DNA of 31,100 nucleotides from a virus: IMG/VR virus record IMGVR_UViG_3300027162_000166, positions 1 to 31,100 of that record. One strand, given 5' to 3'. Position numbers and translations under genes: made by a program. Under the pieces are notes generated by a model, which saw nothing but the letters and a program-made list of their open reading frames with translations, did not search any database and was not told the DNA's origin. The first letter of the stretch is position 1. Each line of letters opens with the position of its first letter. Below, in pieces: positions 160 to 19,603 of this stretch.

Positions 160-1593
160 TTAAATCTTAGTGGCTTGTATGACAGTTTGTCCTGCACCTG
201 TTGACAACATATACTTCACACCACCGAGATTGACGATGGTAAATCTATTATTTCCCACATGCTGCTTAACCGTATCAGTAGTACCGGGCGCAAATTGCCC
301 TTTGCCATTAGACAACAAAATCTGCTTGTTAAACACTGTAGATAACGTATTACAAATAATGTCATCAATACCATCCCCATTCAAATCTGCGAATTGCATA
401 CGGTAACACCAAGCATATGGGTCTTTAAAACTACCCAACTGTCCAGGGATAATGGTTTCTGTAACATCAGTCCAAGTTCCGCTTATATTCTTCAGTATTT
501 GATATCCCAGACCTGACCATGTGCCATTAATAGAATAAGCTATTGCGGCAACTATTTCCTTTTTACCATCTCCATCTAAGTCTTTTGCAGCAACAAAGCT
601 ATAGGGAGTATCACAATTATTAAACCATAAGAAACACTCTTGAGCATTGAGAGCATTTCTCATAAAACTGGGGATCAAAACCTGCTTAGATTTATTGTAG
701 GATAGAACTGCGTTTGATTCCAGAATGTTTAAGTTGTAGGTGCTACCAGTTATCACATCTGGGATTCCATCACCGTTTATGTCATCAGCAGTGCCAATGC
801 CCATGGGCTTAACAAATTTTTCTGTGAAATTGATTCCTGGTTCGGTCGTTGATTCATCAAGAGCCAATTTAAAAGACAGTTTTGCCATGTTGGGCCCAGC
901 TAATAAAACACTGCTGTTTGTAAACCCTTGCCCGGAATACCCTCCGCAATTAACCATTCTATTCTGTGAGAGATATGGTTGATTTAAAATCAATAAATCA
1001 TTAATACCATCTTTGTTGAAATCAGCAGACATTAAACCGTGACTATAATCCCAAACCTGGGGCAGTAGGCTAGTTGCATTAATATATGCACCGTTATTAA
1101 CTACCAAGCTATTTTGAAAACCGCAATCGTTGCCGGTACCGTCTACCCCTGTATCACCGATAAAAATATCTTTTTTTCCATCGCCAGTTAAATCAGCAAT
1201 CAGTCCTTGTCGAGGCCATATATGCCTATTTGCGACCGACTTGAATGCTGTGTCAACCTTATAGGATTTCGAGATCGTGTCGTAAACCAGTAAAATAGGT
1301 TTTGAAGATCTTGCAACACTTCCACCTTGGTTGTATCGCATAACTCCCAACAAAAGATCGTCATAGCCATCGCTGTTTACATCACCCACTGCGATAATAT
1401 CGAAACCAAGTCCATCTCCGAATTTGGCAGCATCTTCTGAATCGCTGGCCACAGTTAGGTCAAAACTTCCGATGGTAAAAATTGGATTTAAACTTGAACT
1501 AGGCGGTGTTACTACACTACCTCCGCCTCCACCCCCTCCGCCACACGATGCCAGAGTGGATCCGATTAATAGTGCTAAGAATGTTTTTTTCAT
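160..1593 (-). CDS. FG-GAP/VCBS-repeat outer-membrane lipoprotein
   Basis: This 477-residue protein starts with a lipoprotein signal peptide: two Lys, a hydrophobic core, and the lipobox LASC with the acylated Cys at residue 17. Eight Gly follow the Cys. The +2 residue is Gly, not Asp, so outer-membrane sorting is expected. Six FG-GAP calcium-loop motifs follow, at about residues 71 (DVNSDGYDD), 134 (DLTGDGKKD), 191 (DFNKDGIND), 271 (DINGDGIPD), 338 (DLDGDGKKE) and 403 (DLNGDGIDD). Such repeats build an integrin-alpha-like beta-propeller, usually used for adhesion or binding. The start codon lies in an ATGA overlap with the upstream gene's stop, with AAAGG just upstream, so translation is probably coupled. 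The style is bacterial (Burkholderiales-like) and unusual for a T4-like phage. Family and location are fairly sure; binding partner and role in infection (for example superinfection exclusion) are inference. Confidence 0.85.
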   Translation of the reverse strand: MKKTFLALLIGSTLASCGGGGGGGGSVVTPPSSSLNPIFTIGSFDLTVASDSEDAAKFGDGLGFDIIAVGDVNSDGYDDLLLGVMRYNQGGSVARSSKPILLVYDTISKSYKVDTAFKSVANRHIWPRQGLIADLTGDGKKDIFIGDTGVDGTGNDCGFQNSLVVNNGAYINATSLLPQVWDYSHGLMSADFNKDGINDLLILNQPYLSQNRMVNCGGYSGQGFTNSSVLLAGPNMAKLSFKLALDESTTEPGINFTEKFVKPMGIGTADDINGDGIPDVITGSTYNLNILESNAVLSYNKSKQVLIPSFMRNALNAQECFLWFNNCDTPYSFVAAKDLDGDGKKEIVAAIAYSINGTWSGLGYQILKNISGTWTDVTETIIPGQLGSFKDPYAWCYRMQFADLNGDGIDDIICNTLSTVFNKQILLSNGKGQFAPGTTDTVKQHVGNNRFTIVNLGGVKYMLSTGAGQTVIQATKI

Positions 1594-2786
1594 TTGTATA
1601 CCTTTAGTAGGATTGTATCCTGACTGATGCGACCGTTAAGTTTAATCTCGGTACTCTTGATGCCCTTGAACCATTTCTTAGCGGCAGGCTTGCCATTGTC
1701 GTTAAACTCTTTGATCTGCTTGTCGGGCTTGCGTAGCGTTTTCTGCACACTTAGGGCGGAATCAAATCCAAATATCTTAGATCCCTTTACACCCAGCTTG
1801 CCAATATGGCTGTCAGCAATGTAAATACCCAGCTTACGAGTTTTAGTATTGTAAACCCAAAGTTCTTCAGCACTAAGGATGTTGACGGGGTCCACACTCT
1901 TAACTTTGAGCTCAGTGCTTTCACGCATGTAAATCAGTTTGGCAACCACTTTTTCTGGCGGCACTGCCTTTTTCTTGCGTGGAGCCTTATTGGCACGTTT
2001 GATGATGCCATAGCTGTTAGTGTCTGCCAGAGCCTGTTGCCACCAAGCGAGCACAGCCTTGATTTGACGTTTATTCCAGTGCTTGTATGCTTCAAGTAGT
2101 TGACTGTCCTTGCCTTCGGCAACTTGTTCAAACTCTGCGATGTTGCGTTCAATTACAGCGACAACATGTTTGACATGTGCAGGTTGAATGTTGTTCTTAG
2201 TTAGTAAATCTACTAAGCGTGGCTCACCTTTAAAACCATTTTTAACGAAGTCATCAAAAGCACCTTCTAAGTCACCAGCAGACTCCTGAGCCTTTTCGCG
2301 CAAACGGTCCTGTATGTTGGGCTTGGCTACTTCAACTTTGACTTCTTTGACTTCTTTGGGACTAAGCTCACTGGTCCAACCCTGAGTCTTAAGTGCTTTG
2401 ACAATTGTACGCATGGTGCTAAATCTTAGTTTTAAACCCATACGTGCTGCTCGCAGCACGAAGCCAATACTAGATCCCGGTGTAAGATCGCCCCGTTTAA
2501 TGGCTTCAACCTGTTTGGCTCGGCGTGGATTCTTACTTAAAAAGTTGACTAGCCATTCTTGGCTGGTCTTGTTGTCCTGAGTAAAATTATACCAGTTAAG
2601 TGTTTTGTGAATTGTTGTTCTGTAAGTGACGTGACTCCAAGTATCCTGTTCATCCAGCGAGGGATACTGCGGTTCATTGCCTACATATTTGGCATCTGCT
2701 TCCTTGTAAGGAACGGGTTTAGCTGGCTGTTCAAAACGCCAAGCGATTTTACCTGTTTCTACCTTTACTTGCTTTCTGGTTGCCAT
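1590..2786 (-). CDS. Hypothetical phage protein, 398 aa, basic
   Basis: The start at 2786 is supported by a strong Shine-Dalgarno (AGGAG, 5 nt before ATG). The protein is Lys-rich and has no signal peptide or membrane segment. An aromatic N-terminal part (WSHVTYRTTIHKTLNWYNF, about residues 50-68) precedes a helical middle. A Lys/Pro-rich linker (KAPRKKKAVPPEKVV, about 266-280) leads to a C-terminal part of likely beta structure ending in LLKVYK. It resembles in style the conserved hypotheticals of marine and freshwater T4-like phages, but I cannot name a family. It overlaps the metallopeptidase-like gene upstream by 38 nt and the lipoprotein downstream by 4 nt, so the three probably form one transcript. 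Function unknown. Confidence 0.8.
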   Translation of the reverse strand: MATRKQVKVETGKIAWRFEQPAKPVPYKEADAKYVGNEPQYPSLDEQDTWSHVTYRTTIHKTLNWYNFTQDNKTSQEWLVNFLSKNPRRAKQVEAIKRGDLTPGSSIGFVLRAARMGLKLRFSTMRTIVKALKTQGWTSELSPKEVKEVKVEVAKPNIQDRLREKAQESAGDLEGAFDDFVKNGFKGEPRLVDLLTKNNIQPAHVKHVVAVIERNIAEFEQVAEGKDSQLLEAYKHWNKRQIKAVLAWWQQALADTNSYGIIKRANKAPRKKKAVPPEKVVAKLIYMRESTELKVKSVDPVNILSAEELWVYNTKTRKLGIYIADSHIGKLGVKGSKIFGFDSALSVQKTLRKPDKQIKEFNDNGKPAAKKWFKGIKSTEIKLNGRISQDTILLKVYK

Positions 2787-3213
2787 ACTTTCTCCTAATT
2801 AACTCAAATGCCCTATGCATTAATAATGATTCCTTACTATAAGCCTCAATTTCCCAAGGCCTATCTAAGTAACGATTTTTTACTACCTTTCCCAACCAAA
2901 CATGCTCATATCGTTTCTTACTTAAAACAATCTTTAAATGTCCGCGAACAAACTGTTTGACATGCACCATTTCATGTGCCAGTATCCTAGCCAGTCTATC
3001 CGCAGACAACGTGCTTTGTAAGAATATGTAATATTCTCCGCCGTATTCTGAAGCAAAGCCATCTGCGTTAAACTCACTATTAACATCTTTACGTGTCGTG
3101 ATTATAACACTTTTTGGATTTTTGTCCAATTTTAGAAGATGAACATAGGCTTGAGCTAGTTCCTCAAGTATATCTCGTTTTAATTGGCTACGACAACTTA
3201 TCTGAATGTCCAT
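2749..3213 (-). CDS. Putative zinc metallopeptidase (HEXXH, SprT/gluzincin-like)
   Basis: With the ATG at 3213 the protein is 154 residues. The frame is open further upstream, but the extra residues run through the promoter and terminator region, so this internal ATG (MDIQISCRSQ) is preferred. The zincin motif HEMVH lies at residues 80-84 (H80, E81, H84), within a helix preceded by RLARILA. About 38 residues later PWEIEAY (120-126) could give the third zinc ligand as Glu, the gluzincin pattern. The C-terminus is basic (RKYGNQKASKGRNR). Small HEXXH proteins of this kind occur in many T4-like phages; substrates are generally unknown. The gene sits just behind a consensus sigma70 promoter whose predicted transcription start falls on the ATG, so the mRNA may be leaderless. 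Peptidase activity is inference from the motif. Confidence 0.7.
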   Translation of the reverse strand: MDIQISCRSQLKRDILEELAQAYVHLLKLDKNPKSVIITTRKDVNSEFNADGFASEYGGEYYIFLQSTLSADRLARILAHEMVHVKQFVRGHLKIVLSKKRYEHVWLGKVVKNRYLDRPWEIEAYSKESLLMHRAFELIRRKYGNQKASKGRNR

Positions 3214-3248
3214 TTCCACAGTATAGCAGGTTAGCCATTTTGTGTCAA
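3213..3248 (-). promoter_or_regulatory. Consensus sigma70-type promoter for the metallopeptidase/lipoprotein operon
   Basis: On the minus strand, TTGACA (3243-3248) and TATACT (3220-3225) are separated by exactly 17 nt. The -35 is perfect and the -10 matches five of six positions. Six bases (GTGGAA) separate the -10 from the ATG at 3213, so the expected +1 coincides with the start codon. It lies directly downstream of the porin terminator and would start a new unit running 3213 to 160. T4-like phages use host-like promoters for early genes, so early expression is plausible. Confidence 0.75.
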
Positions 3249-3249
3249 T

Positions 3250-3274
3250 AAAAAACCCGCCGACGGCGGGTTTT
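3250..3274 (-). terminator. Rho-independent terminator of the porin gene
   Basis: Two 10-nt arms, AAAACCCGCC (3252-3261) and GGCGGGTTTT (3265-3274), pair perfectly around a 3-nt loop. On the minus strand the GC-rich stem is followed by six T (the last five at 3255-3251, before ATT). It sits 18 nt after the porin stop and insulates the porin from the next unit. The A-tract on the other side makes it potentially bidirectional. Confidence 0.9.
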
Positions 3275-3292
3275 GGGAAAGTTTCTAATATA

Positions 3293-4312
3293 TTAGAAAC
3301 GATGACGAATACCAACGCCCATTACACGAGCATCTGCCCATGCAGCATTAGTACGGTTGACACCGTCGTTTGTGTAGTTAGTGTCTTTGACAGCCGCATA
3401 CAAGTCAGTACGCTTGCTCATTGCATGGCTAATACCTACTGCCCAGCTGGCTGTTTCTGCACTACGGTTTCCAACAAAACTATGGTCAAAATGACTGTAG
3501 CTGGCCATTAGTGTGTTACCTTTGCCCATTGGCATTGTAGCACCAATGCTGTAGCCTTTATCTTCTTTGGTTACTGCATCGCTGTTTTCTACACGATTCC
3601 ATTGTGCAAACATCTTGGCTCTTTTTAGATCCACACTTATACCTGTGATTACAGATGTCATATTATGACGTCCTGGGCCCATATCAACTTCTTGCCAAGT
3701 TGCTGTAAAACCAACTGGACCTTGGAACATCATACCGCCAAGACTTTTACCGCTTTGCTTAGTTCCAAAAGCATCATCTTGCACGCCAGCTGAATAAACC
3801 CCAGTTAAAGCAACAGGACCAGCATTAGTTTTTACTAGTACTGCATTGTTCCAGCCAGTATCTGATCCACCGCCGCCTAGGTTATAATTACTGGCACCAA
3901 AACGCTGTGTAACCATTGGACTAAACACAAAACTATCACTTAGTGCGTTAAACGCAATAGTTGAAATAAAGTATGGTGTGGTTACACGACCAGCTTGTAC
4001 TTCGCCTGATTTATTGCTCAAACCAACATAAGCGTTACGAGCAAACATATTGTCTCCGTTGAAACGACCTTGTTGAGCAGTATCTGGGCGTAGAAATTGC
4101 TCAAGCACGACATTGGCTTTAACGCCATGACCTAGGTCTTCTGAACTACGAATTCCTATATAACTAGTAGTCATTCCACCGCTGCTAATTTGAGTTGGTG
4201 CTTTATTATTAGTATGACCAACATATCCATCTACCAAGCCATATAGACTAGTTTGGGCCTGTGCTGCGGTAGCAGCTCCAGCAATCAATGCTGCTAATAA
4301 AAGTTTTTTCAT
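3293..4312 (-). CDS. Outer-membrane porin, Burkholderiales Porin_4 type (phage moron)
   Basis: This 339-residue protein begins with a Sec signal peptide (MKKLLLAALIAGAATAAQA, cleavage after residue 19). The mature protein starts QTSLYGLVDGYV, the typical first strand of betaproteobacterial trimeric porins. Further hallmarks are TTSYIGIRSSEDLGHGVKA, FARNAYVGLSNKSGEVQAGR, a repeated strand style such as YSIGATMPMGKGNTLMASYS, MSKRTDLYAAVKD, and the C-terminal VGIRHRF with terminal Phe, the signal read by the BAM assembly machinery. The length is close to the family norm of about 340-400. It would form a 16-stranded general diffusion pore in the host outer membrane. The start has AAGGA 8 nt upstream. 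The gene has its own promoter (4367-4395) and terminator (3250-3274), the moron layout. Phage-borne porins are known from lambdoid phages (Lc of PA-2); one in a T4-like genome is unusual. Family assignment is near certain; its role in infection is inference. Confidence 0.93.
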   Translation of the reverse strand: MKKLLLAALIAGAATAAQAQTSLYGLVDGYVGHTNNKAPTQISSGGMTTSYIGIRSSEDLGHGVKANVVLEQFLRPDTAQQGRFNGDNMFARNAYVGLSNKSGEVQAGRVTTPYFISTIAFNALSDSFVFSPMVTQRFGASNYNLGGGGSDTGWNNAVLVKTNAGPVALTGVYSAGVQDDAFGTKQSGKSLGGMMFQGPVGFTATWQEVDMGPGRHNMTSVITGISVDLKRAKMFAQWNRVENSDAVTKEDKGYSIGATMPMGKGNTLMASYSHFDHSFVGNRSAETASWAVGISHAMSKRTDLYAAVKDTNYTNDGVNRTNAAWADARVMGVGIRHRF

Positions 4313-4366
4313 CCTTTTTTCCTTTTTAAAATCATATACAAACTTATATAGTTGTAGTTATCTGTT

Positions 4367-4395
4367 ATTGTACATGTAGATAGTATTTAAATCAA
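4367..4395 (-). promoter_or_regulatory. Sigma70-type promoter of the porin
   Basis: On the minus strand TTGATT (4390-4395) and TACAAT (4367-4372) are spaced by 17 nt. Expected transcription start is near 4360, leaving a leader of about 48 nt before the porin ATG, with an AAGGA ribosome site. The match to host consensus is good in both boxes, so the porin can be transcribed independently of phage late factors. Confidence 0.6.
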
Positions 4396-4430
4396 GTATA
4401 ACGGTAAGATATACTACACTATAACTCATT

Positions 4431-4450
4431 TTGTTGCTAAAAAGCAACAA
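4431..4450. other. Inverted repeat in the divergent porin/neck intergenic region
   Basis: TTGTTGCT (4431-4438) and AGCAACAA (4443-4450) are perfect inverted arms around AAAA. Neither side carries a T-tract, so it is not a standard terminator. It lies between the divergent porin and neck-gene starts, upstream of both, and could be a regulator-binding palindrome. The rest of the 4313-4495 gap is AT-rich and holds the porin promoter and a possible late promoter for the rightward genes. Confidence 0.4.
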
Positions 4451-4453
4451 TGT

Positions 4454-4461
4454 TATAAAAA
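4454..4461 (+). promoter_or_regulatory. Possible late promoter for the neck/tail-completion operon
   Basis: TATAAAAA matches the T4 late octamer TATAAATA at seven of eight positions and lies 34 nt before the ATG at 4496. A second, poorer match (GGTAAATA, 4481-4488) is too close to the ATG to give a leader. AAGG at 4479-4482 is 13 nt from the ATG, long for a ribosome site. Weak evidence only. Confidence 0.3.
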
Positions 4462-4495
4462 ATATTTTGAATTGACATAAGGTAAATAGTATACT

Positions 4496-5542
4496 ATGCC
4501 AAGATTAAGCCTTTGGAAGAACGAAAAGACCAATGATTATCATTTCATGGACAAGGTTATCCGTGAACAATTTCTTGTTGGTGGCACTGCCGTTCTAATC
4601 CACAAATATTTGCAGCCAGCGGATCAGGGTGCCAGCAATGATCCAACTAAACCTAATCATAGAGTAGAAAGCAAATTAGACGAAACTAAAATACAAGACT
4701 TGCTTCTACTTGAAAACAGAGATCGTATATATGACCCCGATGTCTATGAACTACGTGGCGTTTATAATGTGGGAGATCAAGATTTTGATCTAACACAGTT
4801 TGGTTTATTTTTAAGTGCTGATACTATATTTGTAACGTTTCATACCAATGACATGGTGGAACGCATGGGACGCAAGCTCATGGCGGGAGATGTAATCGAG
4901 TTACCCCATGTTAGAGATGATTTACTGTTAGATCAAACTAAGCCTGCTATCAATAAATTTTATGTTATACAAGATGCTGCTCGTGCTGCGGAAGGATTTA
5001 GTCAAACTTGGTATCCACATATATGGCGCATCAAAGCCAGTCCAATGACAGATGCTCAAGAATATAGAGACATATTGCAGCAAAAAGCAGACAATGGTAT
5101 AGACACGCTTAAAGATGCCTTAAGCACATATCAGCGTGAGCTGGAAATAAGTAATGCTATTGTAGAGCGTGGTGAGCAACTTGCTCCTACAATATTAGAC
5201 GACGGTGATAATATCATACAGGATGTTAGTAAGAAATATCAAACAAATGCTGACACTACATATAACCATGGTGAAGCGTTGAACGAAGGTTTAAGTTTTC
5301 CATTGCTACCAACTCAGGGAGAATTTTTCCTGCGTACAGACTACAGCCCTCCCACATTGTTTGTATATAGAGGAACACGTTGGCAACGTATGGAAACACC
5401 AAATGGTCCCGTTAATTTACGTGATCGCGTGCTTAATGCTGCACCATTTATCAACAACACCGCAACCACTGTAATCGGCAGTGAAGAAATGCCCGAGCGT
5501 CAAGCCCTAAGCCAAGTTATTAAACCTAAAACGGACTTTTAA
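4496..5542 (+). CDS. T4-like virion structural protein, possibly a neck protein
   Basis: This 348-residue protein has no signal peptide. Recognisable blocks are EQFLVGGTAVLIHKYL (about 24-39), IQDLLLLENRDRIYDPDVYE (66-85), DLTQFGLFLSADTIFVTFH (98-116), RMGRKLMAGDVIELPHVRDD (123-142) and DAARAAEGFSQTWYPHIWRI (160-179). A C-terminal module near EFFLRTDYSPPTLFVYRGTR carries a Y-x-G-x-x-W pattern. I recall this layout from structural proteins of marine T4-like phages. The GDVIELPH segment and its place just before a gp15-like gene suggest a gp14-like neck component of the head-tail junction, but I cannot confirm that equivalence. The stop is 2 nt from the next start, so the two are co-translated. 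Virion role is fairly sure; the exact position is inference. Confidence 0.65.
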   Translation: MPRLSLWKNEKTNDYHFMDKVIREQFLVGGTAVLIHKYLQPADQGASNDPTKPNHRVESKLDETKIQDLLLLENRDRIYDPDVYELRGVYNVGDQDFDLTQFGLFLSADTIFVTFHTNDMVERMGRKLMAGDVIELPHVRDDLLLDQTKPAINKFYVIQDAARAAEGFSQTWYPHIWRIKASPMTDAQEYRDILQQKADNGIDTLKDALSTYQRELEISNAIVERGEQLAPTILDDGDNIIQDVSKKYQTNADTTYNHGEALNEGLSFPLLPTQGEFFLRTDYSPPTLFVYRGTRWQRMETPNGPVNLRDRVLNAAPFINNTATTVIGSEEMPERQALSQVIKPKTDF

Positions 5543-5544
5543 TC

Positions 5545-6897
5545 ATGCAATTTTTCTACGACGAACAATTAAGAAGATACCTAGCACAGTTTATGCGTAT
5601 ACTTGGTGGATTCAGTGTAAAAACTGGTAAAGACCGCAACGGACAAGAAACTTATATCCAAGTGCCTGTTCGTTATGGTGATATTAATCGCATGGCTGCT
5701 CACATAATGAAAAATCAAAGTGAGAACATGATTAACACTGTGCCGTTTATCAGTTGCTATATCACTGATATGACCATGAGTGCTGAGCGTAGGTCAAACC
5801 CCACACATATTAGCTCTCTTCAAGTGTATGAAAAGAAATTTAATTACCAAACAGGTACATACGAAAGTGACACCATTGGGAATTCTTATACTGTTGAAAG
5901 ATACATGCCTGTTCCCTATGATTTAACAGTTCAGGTTGATATATGGACTAGTAATACTGAACAGAAATTTCAGTTAATGGAACAATTATTAGTTTTGTTT
6001 AATCCTAGTATTAATTTAAAGACCAATGATAATCCTTTTGATTGGAGTAATTTAACTTACACAGAATTAGTTAACATTGTTTGGAGTGTTAGACAAGTTC
6101 CCATGGGAACAGATGACATCATTGACGTTGCTGCCTTAAATTTCACACTTCCAATATTAATAAATCCCCCTGCTAAAGTTAAACGCCAAACTCTTATACA
6201 TTCTATACTCAATGAGATACGTCGCCTTAAAGAGAATGAGAAATTCGATTGGTTGCCTAGTGATCCTATACCCAACAAAGAGTGGGTCATAGTAACTTTT
6301 GAAAATCAAAAACTACAAGTAAGAATAGATGGTCCACAAGCAATCATACTAAATCAAGCAGGTGGACAGACAACCCCCAGTGGTGATTTGTTAACTTGGG
6401 AAGAAGCCTTGCGCCCCTATGGTGAATTAAGATTAGGTATAAGCAATTTACGATTACGCCGTGGGCAAGATCCTGAAGATTACAGTAAAGATATTATAGC
6501 AACAATAGATAATGTAGATCACGCTGCGCCCAACATTGCTTATATTACCATAGATGAAGGCAGTTTGCCCAGTGCCACAGAGGGAGCGATTGATGGAATC
6601 ATTAATCCTGTAAGAACTGCCCCAGGACGTGGCTTACCCGCAGCAGCGACTAACCAACGCTACCTTGTGTTAGAAGATGTACCCAATGTAACAGAATGGG
6701 GAGTAACAAATGCAGTTGCAAATGACATTATTCAATATAACGGAAGTGCATGGACGGTTAGTTTTTCAAGTATAAGTAACAATAGTGGCATTGTGCTAAA
6801 CGCAACAACAGGTGTTCTATATGAATGGCGTCGAGGGCAATGGATTAGTGCAGTGGCTGGTACATATCAAAATGGTTGGTGGAGATTATATTTGTGA
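5545..6897 (+). CDS. Tail sheath stabiliser/completion protein, T4 gp15-like
   Basis: The N-terminal half looks like T4 gp15, which caps the tail tube and sheath. It shows FYDEQLRRYLAQFMRILGGF (residues 3-22), a VPVRYGD strand, PFISCYITDMTMSAERRSNP (about 68-87), a YEKKFNYQTGTY strand, VPYDLTVQVDIWTSNTEQKF, and a block ending LNFTLPILINPPAKV. At 450 residues it is much longer than T4 gp15 (about 270). The extra C-terminal part is probably accessory; its end (IIQYNGSAWTV, then LYEWRRGQWI) resembles the Y-x-G-x-x-W module at the end of the preceding protein. It follows that gene by 2 nt, and its stop overlaps the NUDIX start (GTGA). The family call rests on pattern memory, not a profile search. 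Confidence 0.6.
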   Translation: MQFFYDEQLRRYLAQFMRILGGFSVKTGKDRNGQETYIQVPVRYGDINRMAAHIMKNQSENMINTVPFISCYITDMTMSAERRSNPTHISSLQVYEKKFNYQTGTYESDTIGNSYTVERYMPVPYDLTVQVDIWTSNTEQKFQLMEQLLVLFNPSINLKTNDNPFDWSNLTYTELVNIVWSVRQVPMGTDDIIDVAALNFTLPILINPPAKVKRQTLIHSILNEIRRLKENEKFDWLPSDPIPNKEWVIVTFENQKLQVRIDGPQAIILNQAGGQTTPSGDLLTWEEALRPYGELRLGISNLRLRRGQDPEDYSKDIIATIDNVDHAAPNIAYITIDEGSLPSATEGAIDGIINPVRTAPGRGLPAAATNQRYLVLEDVPNVTEWGVTNAVANDIIQYNGSAWTVSFSSISNNSGIVLNATTGVLYEWRRGQWISAVAGTYQNGWWRLYL

Positions 6898-7367
6898 AAC
6901 AATTTAGAGGAGTTGGTGCTATCATTGTAAGTGAACATTCAGGTAAAGTATTAACGGTACTGAGATCGCCCAAAGAAAGCCATCCTAACACATGGACGTT
7001 TGCAGGAGGTCGAGCCGAGCACAATGAGTCAACATCCGATACACTAGTTAGAGAACTAAAAGAAGAATTGCAATTAACAAAATTTAAAAAAATATTACCT
7101 TTACATAGATATCAAAGTAGAAGTAAAGATTTTATATACGATACATTTATTGTATTGGTTAATAAAGAATTTGTTCCCGTCCTTAATTGGGAAAACAGCG
7201 GCTACGCATGGTCTGATATTGAACATTTACCAAGTCCATTACATCCCAAGACAAGACAAATGATGAATTCATCGCGATTGATTGATAAATTTAAGAATTT
7301 TTGCATTTGGGTAGATAAGAAAAATGGCAGCAGAGATAATTCAATTTCCAAGGAAACAACCTCTTAA
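6894..7367 (+). CDS. NUDIX hydrolase
   Basis: I chose the GTG at 6894 because GGAG lies 9 nt upstream and the GTG overlaps the preceding stop (GTGA). A TTG at 6876 is in frame but has no better ribosome site. The 157-residue protein begins VKQFRGVGAIIVSEHSGKVL, the first NUDIX strands. It carries the NUDIX box at residues 39-61: G39, E45, then RELKEEL with E54, E57 and E58 as metal ligands. The canonical Gly after EE-x is Gln here. NUDIX enzymes hydrolyse nucleoside diphosphates linked to other moieties (dNTPs, ADP-ribose, NAD, capped RNA); T4 also encodes one (NudE). The substrate cannot be read from sequence. Its place inside a structural operon is odd. The 3' end overlaps the next gene by 44 nt. 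Confidence 0.88.
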   Translation: MKQFRGVGAIIVSEHSGKVLTVLRSPKESHPNTWTFAGGRAEHNESTSDTLVRELKEELQLTKFKKILPLHRYQSRSKDFIYDTFIVLVNKEFVPVLNWENSGYAWSDIEHLPSPLHPKTRQMMNSSRLIDKFKNFCIWVDKKNGSRDNSISKETTS

Positions 7368-9236: not shown

Positions 9237-9629
9237 TTACCAGGGAGGAGGAGACCCGTTACTTACATCTTTCCAATTTACTATAGATTCGTCCCAGATG
9301 TATATTTTTGTTACCATATGATCTTCGGGAATAGGGATAGGCGCATCCCAAGTGCAAGTTGCTTCATTTAACATCCAGCTTGGAAACGGTTTGGGCGGTA
9401 TGAAAGCATCTCTACCAGGATCGTATGTATACCCGCATCCTGCATAGTTTTTTCTAAAAGTCTCATTATAGCTTGTCTGTTTCCAATTACTATAACCAAA
9501 AGTGTTAATTAAAAAAGTTATACCCAATTCTTCTCGTTCAATGCCGTTGCCATCTAATAATTCATTGTTATGAACTACAACAACATCTATTACCAAATTA
9601 TTTTCATCTAATTTTGCAAAATGAGCCAT
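9237..9629 (-). CDS. Conserved phage protein, MAHFAKLDENN family, copy A
   Basis: The ATG at 9629 is chosen because it gives MAHFAKLDENN, the same start as the paralogue at 13116-13535; an upstream GTG at 9641 is less likely. The 130-residue protein has the blocks ELLDGNGIEREELGI, WKQTSYNETFRKNYAG, YDPGRDAFIPPKPFPSW and YIWDESIVNWKDV. This family is common beside tail and oxygenase genes in T4-like marine phages, usually annotated as hypothetical; the alternating Trp/Tyr strands suggest a small beta-rich virion or accessory domain. The two copies flank the oxygenase/halogenase cluster. Function unknown. Confidence 0.75.
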   Translation of the reverse strand: MAHFAKLDENNLVIDVVVVHNNELLDGNGIEREELGITFLINTFGYSNWKQTSYNETFRKNYAGCGYTYDPGRDAFIPPKPFPSWMLNEATCTWDAPIPIPEDHMVTKIYIWDESIVNWKDVSNGSPPPW

Positions 9630-9647
9630 GGTTAAATCCACATATCG

Positions 9648-10214
9648 TTAAATATAAGTTGCTACTAAAACGATACGACGCTTTGTTTTTGAAGGTTTCA
9701 TTGCGTGGAATCCTGAAAAAGTAACTATAGAATCCTCAGTGGGTTCAAATGTATCAATGATGCTTAGGTCATTTTCATCTAAGATTACTGTTGATCCGCC
9801 GGCGTCATTGAAGTATACGATTAGATTATTATGATTAAATTTATGATCATGATGTGGTTCAGATATTACATTTTCCACATAGGGGTCAGCGCAGTTGATA
9901 TTTGCTCGTGCAAACATTTCTACTTTTAAATCATTTGCTGCAATGATGTCTTTTAACACAGGAAGAAACAATGTTTCCCAATAGCTGGAAGAAATTTTTG
10001 TTACATAGTTATCTTTTGGTCTTACCAACAAAGCATGGCTATAGTAAGAAACGTCAACTATTTTACTATCACCGATTAATGGCTGTTGGTTTTGATTGAA
10101 AAAGTCATTGTAAGTAGAGCCAGTCTGGTAATACCAAGACAACTCTGAACCGAGGACTAATCTTTTTGCTTCAGCATACCGAGCTGTCAGTGGATTGATT
10201 AGTTTTTTAATCAA
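9648..10214 (-). CDS. 2-oxoglutarate/Fe(II) dioxygenase (1)
   Basis: The start is set at TTG 10214 (MIKKLINPLT, 188 residues). A perfect TATAAATA late promoter lies at 10233-10240, whose mRNA would begin near 10227, and GGAG sits 7 nt before this TTG; the in-frame TTG at 10232 would be upstream of the transcript. The double-stranded beta-helix core shows HHDH at residues 121-124, giving the HxD iron ligands (H121, D123). The distal His is in SGFHAMKP (H170), and Arg for 2-oxoglutarate in KTKRRIVLVATYI (R179 or R180). It would hydroxylate or otherwise oxidise an unknown substrate. It is the last of four such enzymes in the cluster and the only one with its own exact late promoter. Confidence 0.75.
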   Translation of the reverse strand: MIKKLINPLTARYAEAKRLVLGSELSWYYQTGSTYNDFFNQNQQPLIGDSKIVDVSYYSHALLVRPKDNYVTKISSSYWETLFLPVLKDIIAANDLKVEMFARANINCADPYVENVISEPHHDHKFNHNNLIVYFNDAGGSTVILDENDLSIIDTFEPTEDSIVTFSGFHAMKPSKTKRRIVLVATYI

Positions 10215-10232
10215 TGATATTCTCCGATTCAA

Positions 10233-10240
10233 TATTTATA
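10233..10240 (-). promoter_or_regulatory. T4 late promoter, exact TATAAATA
   Basis: The minus strand reads TATAAATA, identical to the T4 late consensus. The expected transcript start is about six bases downstream, near 10227, between the two candidate TTG starts of the dioxygenase gene. This settles the start at 10214. Confidence 0.8.
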
Positions 10241-10274
10241 ATATGACAGAGTTGTATGTGCATAGGTATAGTCT

Positions 10275-10895
10275 TTATTGAAGTGTAAGTCCAGTTAATC
10301 GATCAATTTCTCCTAAATTGCCAACTGGAAATGTGTTAAAACTTATACTGATTCTAGTATAATCGCAAGCTGCTCTGTTTTCTACCATATGTGTCAAACT
10401 GCTTGGGAATAATAAAAGCTGCCCTGTAATGCTTTCATACCACCAACTGCTACTGTTGTATATGTTGAAATCACTGGCTGGTATATCAAATTGTCTGTAA
10501 TCATCTTTGTAAAAGAAAATTTTATCAGTTAAATTATTGGTCTGTATATAAAATACTCCGCTAATAAAACTATTAGGATGTTGATGTTTGTGATGAAATT
10601 CATTGCTTTCTGTATAATTACACCAACTCTGCGTAATTCTAAGCATGACATTGTTTTTAGGACTATAAACAGTTTTAAAAAAATCGTTCATACATAAAGT
10701 TAAAAAATCTTTTACATCGCACAAAATAGGTATATCTAAGATATGTTCGTTGGCGCTTTTTAAATTACCCATATTCTTAGACTTTTCTAGACTGATAATA
10801 CAGTTCAATTCTTCGGCTGTAAAATTTCGGCCTAAATCATACATACCAATTGGTATAGGAAATAATCCTTGTATTCTTCCTGTGGGAGGTTTCAT
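10275..10895 (-). CDS. 2-oxoglutarate/Fe(II) oxygenase (2), 2OG-FeII_Oxy_5 type
   Basis: This 206-residue protein begins GLFPIPIGMYDLG, typical of the phage 2OG-FeII_Oxy_5 group. The iron-binding strand is HHKHQHPNSFISGVFYI (H104 and H106 as HxH-P), followed by KIFFYKDDYRQFDIP. The second half is QLLLFPSSLTHMVENR, with distal His H169, and RISISFN with the 2-oxoglutarate Arg R181. WCNYTES before the first His is the usual Trp/Asn strand. It would couple 2-oxoglutarate decarboxylation to oxidation of an unknown substrate. It follows the next upstream gene by 14 nt. The ribosome site is weak. Composition is strongly AT-rich compared with the fibre genes. Confidence 0.82.
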   Translation of the reverse strand: MKPPTGRIQGLFPIPIGMYDLGRNFTAEELNCIISLEKSKNMGNLKSANEHILDIPILCDVKDFLTLCMNDFFKTVYSPKNNVMLRITQSWCNYTESNEFHHKHQHPNSFISGVFYIQTNNLTDKIFFYKDDYRQFDIPASDFNIYNSSSWWYESITGQLLLFPSSLTHMVENRAACDYTRISISFNTFPVGNLGEIDRLTGLTLQ

Positions 10896-10909
10896 ATATC
10901 AGACTTTGT

Positions 10910-11470
10910 TTAATATGACCAAGAAACAAAACTATAACGTGTTCCCTTAGTCACCAATGAAACTTGATGTGGGTACAAAAAATTACTGGGAAATATTATA
11001 ATATCACCTTTTTGAAACTCTATAACTTCGTCGTCAAATAATTTTAATTGCCCACCTTCATAATTATCATTTAGACTTCCTAAAATTGTCAGTATAGGAA
11101 CGCCTCTTATTTTCCCATCAAACACGCTTCTAATATGGTCACAGTGTTTTTTCATTTCTGTACCTTCGTCATATTTGTTAAAGCGTATTTCCGTATATCC
11201 TGTCCAATGATCATACCAGTCAAAATTAATTAATTTATGATAGTTTCTTAGTGCTTCATAACAAATTTGCATTAAAGAAAAATAAGTTGATAATGATGAA
11301 TCATATCTAACACTTAAATCATTGGCAAACGAAAATTCATCACCGACCCCTGTAGAATACGTATGTTTTGTAAATGTTTTTTCTTTTAATTCATTTACAG
11401 TACTATCACATGTTTGATATGGCACAAAGTTTGATAGCCTAATAATATAATCGTTTAAGTTCTTGTTCAT
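10910..11470 (-). CDS. 2-oxoglutarate/Fe(II) oxygenase (3), prolyl-4-hydroxylase-like
   Basis: This 186-residue protein has the P4H-type core: YTEIRFNKYDEGTEMKKHCD with HxD at H109-C-D111. Next come GGQLKLFDDEVIEF, then KGDIIIFPSNFLYPHQV with distal His H168, and KGTRYSFVSWSY with Arg R178 for 2-oxoglutarate. This differs from the HxHP layout of its two neighbours and resembles the hydroxylases that oxidise Pro or similar residues. Its start overlaps the upstream stop by one base (TAATG at 11470), so translation is coupled. Substrate unknown; class is fairly sure. Confidence 0.84.
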   Translation of the reverse strand: MNKNLNDYIIRLSNFVPYQTCDSTVNELKEKTFTKHTYSTGVGDEFSFANDLSVRYDSSLSTYFSLMQICYEALRNYHKLINFDWYDHWTGYTEIRFNKYDEGTEMKKHCDHIRSVFDGKIRGVPILTILGSLNDNYEGGQLKLFDDEVIEFQKGDIIIFPSNFLYPHQVSLVTKGTRYSFVSWSY

Positions 11471-11979
11471 TATTTACAGTCTATATTAAAAGAAATAATT
11501 AATCTTTGATCGTCAGCGTTGTTTGCTTCTGTATAATGTAATAGTGCAGATGGGAAGAATATAATAGTACCTTCTTGTACACTGGGAGAGAAAACAATAT
11601 CGTTACCGTTTATCCAATTCTTAAATGGTGCAATAAATTTTGTAGGGGTATGGCTTTTATGATAATTTATATAGCAAACCGCACTGTATCCAACTGCACC
11701 GTGTGTATGTGGGCCATGATAATCATGTTTTTCTGCCAATTCAAACCAAGCCTTTTTAATACTAGCTTGTTTTATACCTAAAATATTTTGAAATTGATAT
11801 ATTTCATCAGTAAAAATATCTGACACCTTATGTGTATAATCTTGATTATTAAAATAATCAGTTTGAATAAAAATTGATTTAGTTAAATCTTTGGGTATTC
11901 CTAATAATTTTTCTTTTTTCATATTCCAATTATTGCATTCTAGTTGCAAAAAAGGAATTTGAAACATATTTTGAATCAT
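11470..11979 (-). CDS. 2-oxoglutarate/Fe(II) oxygenase (4), 2OG-FeII_Oxy_5 type
   Basis: This 169-residue protein has the HGPHTHGAVGYSAVCYINY strand (H91 and H93). The GTIIFFPSALLHYTEANN strand carries the distal His H148, and QRLIISFNI holds the 2-oxoglutarate Arg R159. The fold is the same as the 10275-10895 enzyme but the two are well diverged. It begins one base into the halogenase-like stop (TAATG) and ends in a TAATG with the next gene, so three consecutive genes are translationally coupled. This suggests the products act together. Substrate unknown. Confidence 0.82.
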   Translation of the reverse strand: MIQNMFQIPFLQLECNNWNMKKEKLLGIPKDLTKSIFIQTDYFNNQDYTHKVSDIFTDEIYQFQNILGIKQASIKKAWFELAEKHDYHGPHTHGAVGYSAVCYINYHKSHTPTKFIAPFKNWINGNDIVFSPSVQEGTIIFFPSALLHYTEANNADDQRLIISFNIDCK

Positions 11980-13091
11980 TACATTAAACCCAAGTTGCTT
12001 AGATTTTGCTTAAAGCTATTACGATTCCAAGTACCATAACTAGCGTTGTCTGCTTCTTCACCCGCTAAAATTGATTTAAATCTAGAATTATTCATTAAGC
12101 TAGGTAAGTTTTTTTGCCCCTTTGATTTTGCGAAATCCCAAAATTTTGTATCATAAACAGAGCCGGCAGCGTAATGTAACATAATAACGTTTTGGATTTC
12201 TAAAATATCAGTTGCGTATTCTTGATTAATTTGGCTTAAAAACTTATTATTGAACCATAAGTCATAAGCTCTTCTATGGTTTTTATTCATCAAATTAATA
12301 CTTGTTGCTTCCAATGGTTCTAAAAAGAAACTTGCGTTACCATTGTATGCTACCCTACCTTCATAGTTGGTCTTTCTATAATAGTTCTTAAAACTAAAGG
12401 CATTTGTTTGATCGCTAGGTGTCAATTTATAATCTGTAAATATTTGCTTGACATCTTCTTTAACTTCTTCTAGTGTATTAATCGTATTATTATACATATA
12501 TCCAATACTACAGCGATTGAGTAAAGGAATACCAAACACCCATCCATATGGCCTTGCTAAAGTTAACGTATATTGAAATGTTACACCTTCCCAAAAACAC
12601 TGTGTAACATAAACGCTATTAACTGGAATATATTCACTTAAATGAAAGTCATCAAAATTTTCAGGTTTACCTGAGCAATCCATAATATAATCGCTGTCAA
12701 TCATATCATGTGTTACATTTTTTTCAATAATGTTAACTCGTCTTTTGTCTTTATAGTGATTGATAACCCATTCTTGAAGCATGACTGCATTAAAATGGTA
12801 CCCAACGTTACCTCCTGGGAAGGTATGCACATATTCTTTACCTGGTCCCCAACCTGTTTTTTTAATTCCAGCTTTTAATGTCCCATATATAGACTCTAAT
12901 TCTTCAATATTAAAATCCATATTAAGATACAAATCTCTAGGAAAATCCAGTGTAGATCCTTCTCCTACTGCTTGGGGTTTAATTTTGTTGTCAAAATACC
13001 AATCAATTTCCCAATCACTCCAACGATAAAAGTGACTTGCAGCATAACACCCCGCGGTGCCTCGGCCAATAATAGCAATTTTTTTAGACAT
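11979..13091 (-). CDS. FAD-dependent tryptophan halogenase-like oxidoreductase
   Basis: The N-terminus KKIAIIGRGTAGCYAASHF holds the FAD-binding GxGxxG motif (G9, G11, G14). AVGEGSTLDFPRDLY (41-55) matches the VGEAT region of flavin halogenases, YHFNAVMLQEWV (98-109) the next conserved strand, and DYIMDCSG (134-141) the second FAD motif. PYGWVFGIP (181-189) replaces the hallmark WxWxIP: the second Trp is Phe. The catalytic Lys expected shortly after VGEAT is not evident; an Arg (R52) is there. At 370 residues it is shorter than cellular halogenases (about 500 and more). Family assignment is sound; halogenation itself is uncertain and hydroxylation or another flavin oxidation is possible. No convincing ribosome site is visible upstream. 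It is coupled to the oxygenase downstream by TAATG. Confidence 0.82.
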   Translation of the reverse strand: MSKKIAIIGRGTAGCYAASHFYRWSDWEIDWYFDNKIKPQAVGEGSTLDFPRDLYLNMDFNIEELESIYGTLKAGIKKTGWGPGKEYVHTFPGGNVGYHFNAVMLQEWVINHYKDKRRVNIIEKNVTHDMIDSDYIMDCSGKPENFDDFHLSEYIPVNSVYVTQCFWEGVTFQYTLTLARPYGWVFGIPLLNRCSIGYMYNNTINTLEEVKEDVKQIFTDYKLTPSDQTNAFSFKNYYRKTNYEGRVAYNGNASFFLEPLEATSINLMNKNHRRAYDLWFNNKFLSQINQEYATDILEIQNVIMLHYAAGSVYDTKFWDFAKSKGQKNLPSLMNNSRFKSILAGEEADNASYGTWNRNSFKQNLSNLGLM

Positions 13092-13115
13092 ATGAATACT
13101 TATGTGAAGCTACCG

Positions 13116-13535
13116 CTATGGATTAGTGGGTTTTATAAAATATCCATCGGTTTTGTATGAGCAGTCTTGCCAACTTAATGTACTTTCATCCCAAGTATAT
13201 CCAGGATTAGAATAATGATCTGCTGGTTGTATTGGTCTTGGTACCGGTGGTTCATATTTACCTGTTTCAGTATTTAATGTCCAACTAGGGTATGGTTGCT
13301 TATCTAAAAACATATCTTTAACTGGGTCATATATTGATCCTATTTTGGCAAAGTTTTTTCTTATTGTACCATTGTAGCTTGTTTGCTTCCAATATACGTG
13401 TCTGGTCAATGTTATACAAAATGCTAGCCCTAGTTCTTCTCTTTCAATATTATTGTCATCCAACAACTCACTGTTATCTACAATGATAACATCGATAACG
13501 TTATTATTTTCATCTAATTTAGCAAAGTGAGCCAT
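13116..13535 (-). CDS. Conserved phage protein, MAHFAKLDENN family, copy B
   Basis: This 139-residue paralogue of the 9237-9629 protein has MAHFAKLDENNNVIDV, ELLDDNNIEREELGLAF, WKQTSYNGTIRKNF, YDPVKDMFLDKQPYPSW and YTWDESTLSWQDC. It ends with a longer tail, YKTDGYFIKPTNP, than copy A. AAGGTGG at the end of the upstream adhesin gene serves as its ribosome site, 1 nt after which that gene stops. It opens the run towards the halogenase-like gene and closes the fibre module. Function unknown; a small tail-associated or chaperone role would fit the context but is a guess. Confidence 0.75.
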   Translation of the reverse strand: MAHFAKLDENNNVIDVIIVDNSELLDDNNIEREELGLAFCITLTRHVYWKQTSYNGTIRKNFAKIGSIYDPVKDMFLDKQPYPSWTLNTETGKYEPPVPRPIQPADHYSNPGYTWDESTLSWQDCSYKTDGYFIKPTNP

Positions 13536-17992: not shown

Positions 17993-18000
17993 TATTTATC
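17993..18000 (-). promoter_or_regulatory. T4-type late promoter
   Basis: GATAAATA on the minus strand, 20 nt before the ATG at 17972. It overlaps the last codons and the TAA stop (17996-17998) of the preceding fibre gene. It probably drives the run from 17972 to at least 13116. Confidence 0.7.
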
Positions 18001-19603
18001 TTACCCAAATTTCCACTTTACTAGAATTATTAATTGAACCACTGGGACTGCTTCCACCAGCATTTGTTCTAGAGTTAACATAGCCAAATCCTGCACTGGC
18101 CGCATAACCACCACCACCTAGTGTAGATTTAATACCCAGACCTCTACCATTATTGCTATAGAAATAACTTTGATAGTTTTCTGTAGCTATAGCCTGTCCA
18201 AATCTAGCATATGAATATCCGTTGCTGTAGTTTTGTGATTGATTGTATCTCCATTGATTTCCTGGAGTACCCCATTGTGGGTATCCAGATGTTGCAGCTC
18301 CGCCGTCGGCGCTGTAGCTATAATCACGAACTGACTCTGCATCTGAACCCGCACCAGTTTTAGACATAGTCAACCCGACACTGGTGTATGCAGTTAGAAG
18401 TTGACTACTACTATTTGTAGAAGATCCTATTAGGTATGTTGATAAATTAGAATCTCTACCATAAAAACTACAGGCCAAATATCTAAAAGCAAATGATGCT
18501 ACAATATCAGTAGCCACATCTGTACTGGTATTACTGGTATAGTTTAAATTGCCCGAAGTAACATTTATAGGAGTTCTTGTTGTCCAATAGCTAGCATCAT
18601 AAGCGAATGCAGATGAAGCACTAGCATCTCTTACAAGGAACATTAACATCCAATGAAATCCACCGAAACTATTCATTAAGCAATAAGTTTGGAAAGCAGT
18701 TGCATATCCACTTGGTTTAATCCAGTATATACCGCTAGCAGCAGATCCACCTGTTAAACTGTATATATCAGCAGCACTGGTAGATGCTTGGGCCGATGAA
18801 GATCCGTCTAACCATCTTCTAACAATGCTGAATGCACGATCACTGGTATTACCTGCTATATCTGTAGCTCTCAGTGTAAAGTTTGTAGTCACTGTGCTTG
18901 CCCCAGGTTGAGCTAAGGTGCCTGATATTAGACCAGAACTAGCATTAATTGTAAGTGCAGAAGGTAAAGACCCTGATGCTATGCTGTAGCTTATACTATC
19001 ACTTGCGTCTGGGTCTGTTGCTGCCACTGTTATATTAACGCTTTGCCCTGTAGTGTTTGCATAGTCATATGTTCCTAGGGTACCTGCGGCTGTAGACCAA
19101 CTAGGTAAACCGCCGCAGTCTATGCAGTCAAGTTTTGTTGACGATCCTGCCTGTTGGGTCAGTTTAACATCTAAAGGTTCTTGTGCTACTGTGAAATCCT
19201 GAGGAGTCGTGGCTTTAACTGTGGTGGAATCAATGAATGTAACAGTCTGCGCTGTATATTCTGTTCCGTCATTGGTTATAAATTTTATAATAGCGTCATT
19301 GGAAAAATTTGCGCCTGTAATCGTAAATTGTGTTCCTGCATTACCATTATATGTAGCAGGTGTTACGCCTGTTACAGTTGGAGGACTATCCCCTAGTGTT
19401 GCCCAGCCTGTTGATGTATATATTTCTCCCAGGCCTGTGGTAGAATTATACCTGATTGTTCCCCCTGTGGGACTAGCATCACGCTGAACTGTCGTTCCCG
19501 TAGGTAATTTTAATCCGGATGTGTTAGATGATAGTGCATCATTGATCGACGATGCAGTGACTCCCGTTAGTCCAGATTTAAGTGTTTTATAATTTTGAGG
19601 CAT
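17996..19603 (-). CDS. Tail protein with IPT/TIG, Ig-like and fibrinogen-like C-terminal domains
   Basis: The start is ATG 19603 (MPQNYKTLKSG): GGAG lies 5 nt upstream and the ATG shares one base with the preceding stop (TAATG). An in-frame TTG at 19624 is rejected. The 535 residues contain a linker (1-72) and an IPT/TIG-like Ig domain (about 75-150, PPTVTGVTPATYNGNAGTQF). A cadherin/He_PIG-like domain follows (about 168-262, ATDPDASDSISYSIASGSLP). The C-terminal globular part (about 272-535) resembles fibrinogen-related lectin domains: SGIYWIKPSGYATAFQTYCL, then MNSFGGFHWMLMF, corresponding to the YCDM-GGGWT signature. This is a likely receptor- or glycan-binding head. The end is rich in Asn, Tyr, Ser and Gly. 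The domain call is by pattern only. Confidence 0.75.
   Translation of the reverse strand: MPQNYKTLKSGLTGVTASSINDALSSNTSGLKLPTGTTVQRDASPTGGTIRYNSTTGLGEIYTSTGWATLGDSPPTVTGVTPATYNGNAGTQFTITGANFSNDAIIKFITNDGTEYTAQTVTFIDSTTVKATTPQDFTVAQEPLDVKLTQQAGSSTKLDCIDCGGLPSWSTAAGTLGTYDYANTTGQSVNITVAATDPDASDSISYSIASGSLPSALTINASSGLISGTLAQPGASTVTTNFTLRATDIAGNTSDRAFSIVRRWLDGSSSAQASTSAADIYSLTGGSAASGIYWIKPSGYATAFQTYCLMNSFGGFHWMLMFLVRDASASSAFAYDASYWTTRTPINVTSGNLNYTSNTSTDVATDIVASFAFRYLACSFYGRDSNLSTYLIGSSTNSSSQLLTAYTSVGLTMSKTGAGSDAESVRDYSYSADGGAATSGYPQWGTPGNQWRYNQSQNYSNGYSYARFGQAIATENYQSYFYSNNGRGLGIKSTLGGGGYAASAGFGYVNSRTNAGGSSPSGSINNSSKVEIWVR

Follow-up and report, generated by a model that had tools for sequence, protein, structure and literature searches.

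Why would a phage that looks virulent carry the gene of a bacterial outer membrane porin? Phage porins have been described mostly in prophages, in which they act on the lysogen, and the lambdoid examples, Lc of phage PA-2 and NmpC, belong to the enterobacterial OmpC/OmpF group and likewise act in lysogens. The gene considered here lies in a viral DNA stretch of 31,100 nt (IMGVR_UViG_3300027162_000166), called the window throughout, to whose full length all coordinates refer (Table 1). Is the gene complete, and does it belong to the phage? Do related phages carry it, and from where was it acquired? What could a pore of its own offer to a phage during infection?

Table 1. Annotated features of the porin locus and its borders, in window coordinates
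Feature	Position	Strand	Evidence and remarks
phrog_11903 gene, left slot border	1590..2786	-	PHROGs match
Metallopeptidase-like gene downstream of the porin	2749..3213	-	phrog_10499; DUF6782 matched weakly, below cut-off; ATG 3213 chosen as start by inspection
Probable next-gene promoter TTGACA-17-TATACT	3220..3248	-	11/12 matches, TG ahead of the second hexamer
Intrinsic terminator	3250..3274	-	stem of 10 bp, loop GTC, T-tract; L002, L003 and L026 keep this form
Porin gene, 339 aa	3293..4312	-	Sec signal cleaved after AQA, 16 predicted strands, terminal Phe
Sigma-70-like promoter TTGATT-17-TACAAT	4367..4395	-	weakly supported; overlaps the TTTAAATA element
Structural ('neck') gene, phrog_11591, right slot border	4496..5542	+	divergent from the porin
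T4 gp15-type tail sheath stabiliser	5545..6897	+	profile matches

A complete porin of the Porin_4 type

The window gene is a complete general porin of the Gram-negative Porin_4 type. Its translation opens with the signal MKKLLLAALIAGAATAAQAQ and closes with GVGIRHRF, and a Porin_4 search (Pfam), suggested in an earlier sequence-only reading of this DNA, matches residues 7-315 with an E-value of 2.9e-38 and a score of 132.9 bits, the cut-off being 27. The terminal Phe is present in all 69 phage porins compared and a signal pattern in 64 of them. A sequence search of the PDB led to Omp32 (1e54). The AlphaFold2 model, for which phage relatives served as input, is moderately confident (mean pLDDT 65) and has 16 strands, with a poorly modelled loop L3, the one that turns inward after strand 5 (pLDDT about 30-44), and Foldseek places BpsOmp38 and Omp32 at the top of its ranking. 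The porin of a relative with the gene in the same slot (L088) gave a confident model (pLDDT 90) of the same architecture, with 16 strands and a well modelled L3; its best structural match is again Omp32.

Is the protein functional? None of the full-length window-type relatives that were read has an interrupted frame, and dN/dS is 0.07-0.09, with no sign of diversifying selection at synonymous divergence of up to 1.3. Because this amounts to strong purifying selection, the porin is very probably functional. The sequence-only reading had described a complete porin that should be functional; the first claim stands and the second is borne out as very probable.

The porin locus and its phage

That reading had also seen a danger in a chimeric contig, with junctions that are not spanned. 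Two IMG/VR contigs independent of the window's record cross both junctions, one over window positions 3188-7366 at 99.95% identity (L001) and the other over 614-6534 at 97.8% (L002). The gene order porin, metallopeptidase, phrog_11903 is kept in L003 (93% protein identity), whose contig stops short of the neck gene, and in L026 (85%), a 231,776-base contig with gp23 in which the neck gene, too, is in place at the opposite flank. We found no evidence in favour of an assembly chimera joining phage and host DNA; at the contig level, with the porin and both flanks present in independent records, this explanation is rejected, and its probability is negligible.

To which phage does the locus belong? 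The window is probably a fragment of the genome of a phage of the T4 superfamily, since the record is linear and has only 31,100 bases. The best cultured relatives of the flanking structural genes are the jumbo phages Atu_ph07, Phosso and PA5oct (36-43% identity), and from relatives of more than 230 kb we infer that the window phage is itself a jumbo phage. Nine porin-bearing relatives (155-364 kb), their records possibly incomplete, yielded no tyrosine integrase. This is in line with virulent phages and agrees with the earlier expectation that the phage would not be temperate.

How did the gene travel? Identity to L003 is 87-95% over about window positions 3000-4320 and mostly 60-80% on either side, and because it peaks over this stretch, an exchange of the porin cassette between phages is suggested. 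L003, which matches the window over 1588-4438, differs past phrog_11903: a tail gene resembling window 17998-19498 comes next, and the FG-GAP gene of window 160-1593 was not found in the 9 kb of L003. Elsewhere in the window, a low-GC stretch at 9237-13535 (29-35%) holds three 2OG-Fe(II) oxygenases and a tryptophan-halogenase-like gene; it is flanked by copies of phrog_7759 at 9237-9641 and 13116-13535, with an EndoV-like gene just inside.

One slot, two types of porin

Is this gene a single accident? Among 56 informative relatives, a porin faces the neck gene in 20 and is absent from the slot in 36, a count of neck-gene relatives that were not dereplicated and that may, where genomes are incomplete, hold a porin elsewhere. 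Presence is variable at one site among related phages, as is characteristic of a moron. The earlier description of a moron in a T4-like genome is right about the T4 superfamily but says too little: the related phages are jumbo phages, and the gene is no one-off, as it turns up repeatedly in one slot. Since 36 of the 56 do without a slot porin, the gene is dispensable at least in some hosts; since relatives hold either type of pore or none at the same spot, supplying the infected cell with a phage-encoded pore seems to be of use to these phages. The 18 large contigs selected for carrying a porin have one copy each, and 10 of them carry gp23 above the cut-off.

Two further arrangements were seen around these genes. 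A metallopeptidase-like gene also lies directly downstream of the porin in lineages that have no neck gene nearby (L113, L134, L141, L146, L157 and L161). In a more distant relative, whose neck gene is 56% identical (L074), the place beside the neck gene is taken by an SbmA/BacA-type inner-membrane transporter (3347-4375, minus strand), so that the slot holds another envelope transport protein.

Most of the 20 slot porins are not of the window type. They have about 295 residues and 25-29% identity to the window porin, and are still recognised as Porin_4 or Porin_1 by Pfam. A scan with this type found at least 119 encoding stretches in IMG/VR, and 80 of the 119 were kept. What distinguishes these proteins? 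The main clade is about 50 barrel-region residues shorter than bacterial porins (median 274 versus 326), with the losses spread across hairpins 1 and 3 to 7. L2, the latching loop, and L3, the pore loop, are relatively conserved, and the short remnants of L4 and L6 vary most. The window type has 319 barrel residues versus 322 in its bacterial relatives; being no shorter than these, it falls outside any argument from trimming. Apart from one weak hit, PHROGs has no match for the phage-only clade, and the GenBank phages gave a weak match only, which makes the clade easy for annotation pipelines to miss. In other lineages (L095, L097 and others) porins of this clade lie near a gene for an AAA ATPase, labelled MoxR-like from reading the sequence, and near its neighbour (16 and 14 loci, respectively).

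Two probable captures from bacteria

Do both types descend from one phage ancestor? In a tree of 111 rows the porins of about 295 residues group in a single clade of phage sequences only (62 rows, 100/100), and bacterial porins surround the 4 rows of the window type (100/100); the tree does not recover a common descent of the two that excludes bacterial porins. A constraint that unites all phage porins lowers the log-likelihood by 40 units, with an AU p of 0.068; on 60 cleaner rows, a subset chosen after the first tree had been seen, the AU p is 0.014. A single phage origin is disfavoured, though not cleanly rejected, and two separate captures from bacteria are favoured by the tree. The window porin looks like an independent capture into a slot that is often occupied by the phage-only clade.

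Who was the donor? No close bacterial relative came out of two scans across contigs of bacterial genomes. The best bacterial identity is about 40-44% (44% at best among 398 same-phylum and 399 same-order genomes), and the best named bacterial relatives, on Cupriavidus and Burkholderia replicons, reach 35-39%. The sequence-only reading had proposed a tree to name the donor host; to judge by sequence the donor is Burkholderiales-like, but at such identities no genus is assignable.

Signals for expression

Can the porin be expressed on its own, as the sequence-only reading held? The terminator that it described is clearly there: it reads AAAACCCGCC-GTC-GGCGGGTTTT followed by the T-tract, with a folding energy of -15.3 kcal/mol (z -2.6). 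Terminator-like sites lie within 90 bases after 65 of the 69 phage porins, versus 3.2 expected from shuffles, although not all of these loci are independent. The probable promoter of the next gene starts where the T-tract of the porin terminator ends.

The promoter fares less well. TTGATT-17-TACAAT is present upstream of the porin as claimed, but with 9 of 12 matches it scores 9.5 against a shuffle mean of 9.08 in this AT-rich stretch, which is near chance, and its -35 hexamer is not kept in relatives (TAGATT in L003, ATGATT in L026). We do not take it to prove that the porin is expressed independently. At five loci where the slot holds the other porin type, TTGATT-17-TATAAT is present. The TTTAAATA element that overlaps the quoted promoter is kept in all four window-type loci and could be a T4-type late promoter instead of a sigma-70 type. 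The TAAATA core found in T4-type late promoters is over-represented upstream of the porins (32 of 57 loci versus 13.4). At the start of the neck gene, AGGTAAATAGTATACTATG (4479-4498) hardly varies across all the slot relatives that were aligned and is possibly a late promoter or a ribosome-binding element.

What does the phage gain?

How could a porin serve a phage that kills its host? We consider the likeliest benefit, with about even confidence, to be an outer membrane that stays permeable for solutes during a long virulent infection. The choice rests on the purifying selection, the one copy per genome and, for the main clade, the trimmed hairpins with conserved L2 and L3. The exported 16-strand protein would be placed in the outer membrane of the infected host by the host's own Sec and BAM machinery. 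While a large virulent phage goes through its long infection, the host may cease to supply its own porins, or that supply may turn into a liability, and phage-made porin would keep small solutes flowing into the cell. In the main clade, the hairpins cut back around conserved L3 and L2 loops would retain a transport channel that is a poor target for other phages.

Might the porin instead act against those other phages? By diluting, displacing or down-regulating the host porins that rivals or sister virions use, it would remodel the receptors of the cell and exclude superinfection. This is the main rival explanation, though an unlikely one: porins often serve as phage receptors, lambdoid Lc changes the receptors of its lysogen, and the shortened hairpins of the main clade would take away phage-binding surface. 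The patchy presence of the gene and the identity profile of its block, suggestive of exchange between phages, would fit as well. Factors of this kind usually diversify, yet dN/dS is low and L3 is conserved, and exclusion would not require a functional channel.

A more specific metabolic programme, in which the porin takes up particular anions or sugars for the phage's own enzymes and general permeability is not the point, appears improbable. Anion selectivity is on record for porins of the Omp32 type (title of 1e54), and mature phage porins have a small positive net charge of +3 to +5, but the charge of the bacterial relatives is similar (+2 to +4) and no transporter or pathway gene stands consistently beside the porin, whose recurrent neighbours are the metallopeptidase, the AAA ATPase and structural genes. 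That the gene is a passenger, a recently acquired host porin that brings the phage nothing, would suit its patchy distribution but is very improbable and largely refuted by selection that stays strongly purifying across the synonymous divergence observed, by the persistence of the phage-only clade over many contigs and by two apparent captures in one slot.

Returning to permeability, a broader picture can be drawn, if tentatively: general porins may have been domesticated at least twice by virulent jumbo phages in one slot, and one lineage may have become widespread and phage-specific, its hairpins pared so that it feeds the cell and leaves little for rivals to bind. In jumbo phages that look virulent, a porin kept in single copy under purifying selection, and seemingly captured twice at one site, suggests that how permeable the outer membrane of an infected cell is belongs to the traits of the phage. 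The possible gain to a virulent phage from adding to the outer membrane of its host becomes a question that can be tested.

Comparison with known systems

Porins in phages are already known from lambdoid prophages, marine viral contigs and annotated proteins of uncultured phages; a jumbo-phage porin lineage was not found reported. A literature search outside subscription journals and preprints gave no report of porins in jumbo phages, and in a 2026 jumbo-phage review a porin appears only as a receptor. The window porin has no PHROGs hit and no match among GenBank phages at E-values up to 1e-5; one faecal-phage fragment matches at 2e-5. Atu_ph07, Phosso and PA5oct, the closest cultured relatives in structural genes, are likewise without a porin match (E up to 1e-5).

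How does the window porin compare with the phage porins that are known? With Lc and NmpC it shares the phage-carried gene, but it is Burkholderiales-like and belongs to a virulent-looking jumbo phage, and the GenBank phage search gave no sequence relationship to their group. Viral OmpL, whose neighbours in contigs of marine viruses are glnK and amtB (PMC8115048), is also a porin carried by uncultured viral contigs, with the barrel predicted to be kept, but it is nitrogen-gene-linked and Bacteroidetes-type, and the window porin has no such neighbours. Two BFVD entries from uncultured Caudovirales phages, A0A6J5L4P1 and A0A6J5LP82 ('OmpC porin'), have a similar predicted barrel at 14-20% identity to the L088 model. 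In structure, both types of phage porin come closest to the Burkholderiales porins Omp32 (1e54, 2fgq) and BpsOmp38 (8jto, 8wv0), with which the window porin shares the Porin_4 family, the 16-strand fold, the signal and the terminal Phe, and from which it differs in being phage-borne and in an identity of only 22-23% in the structural alignment.
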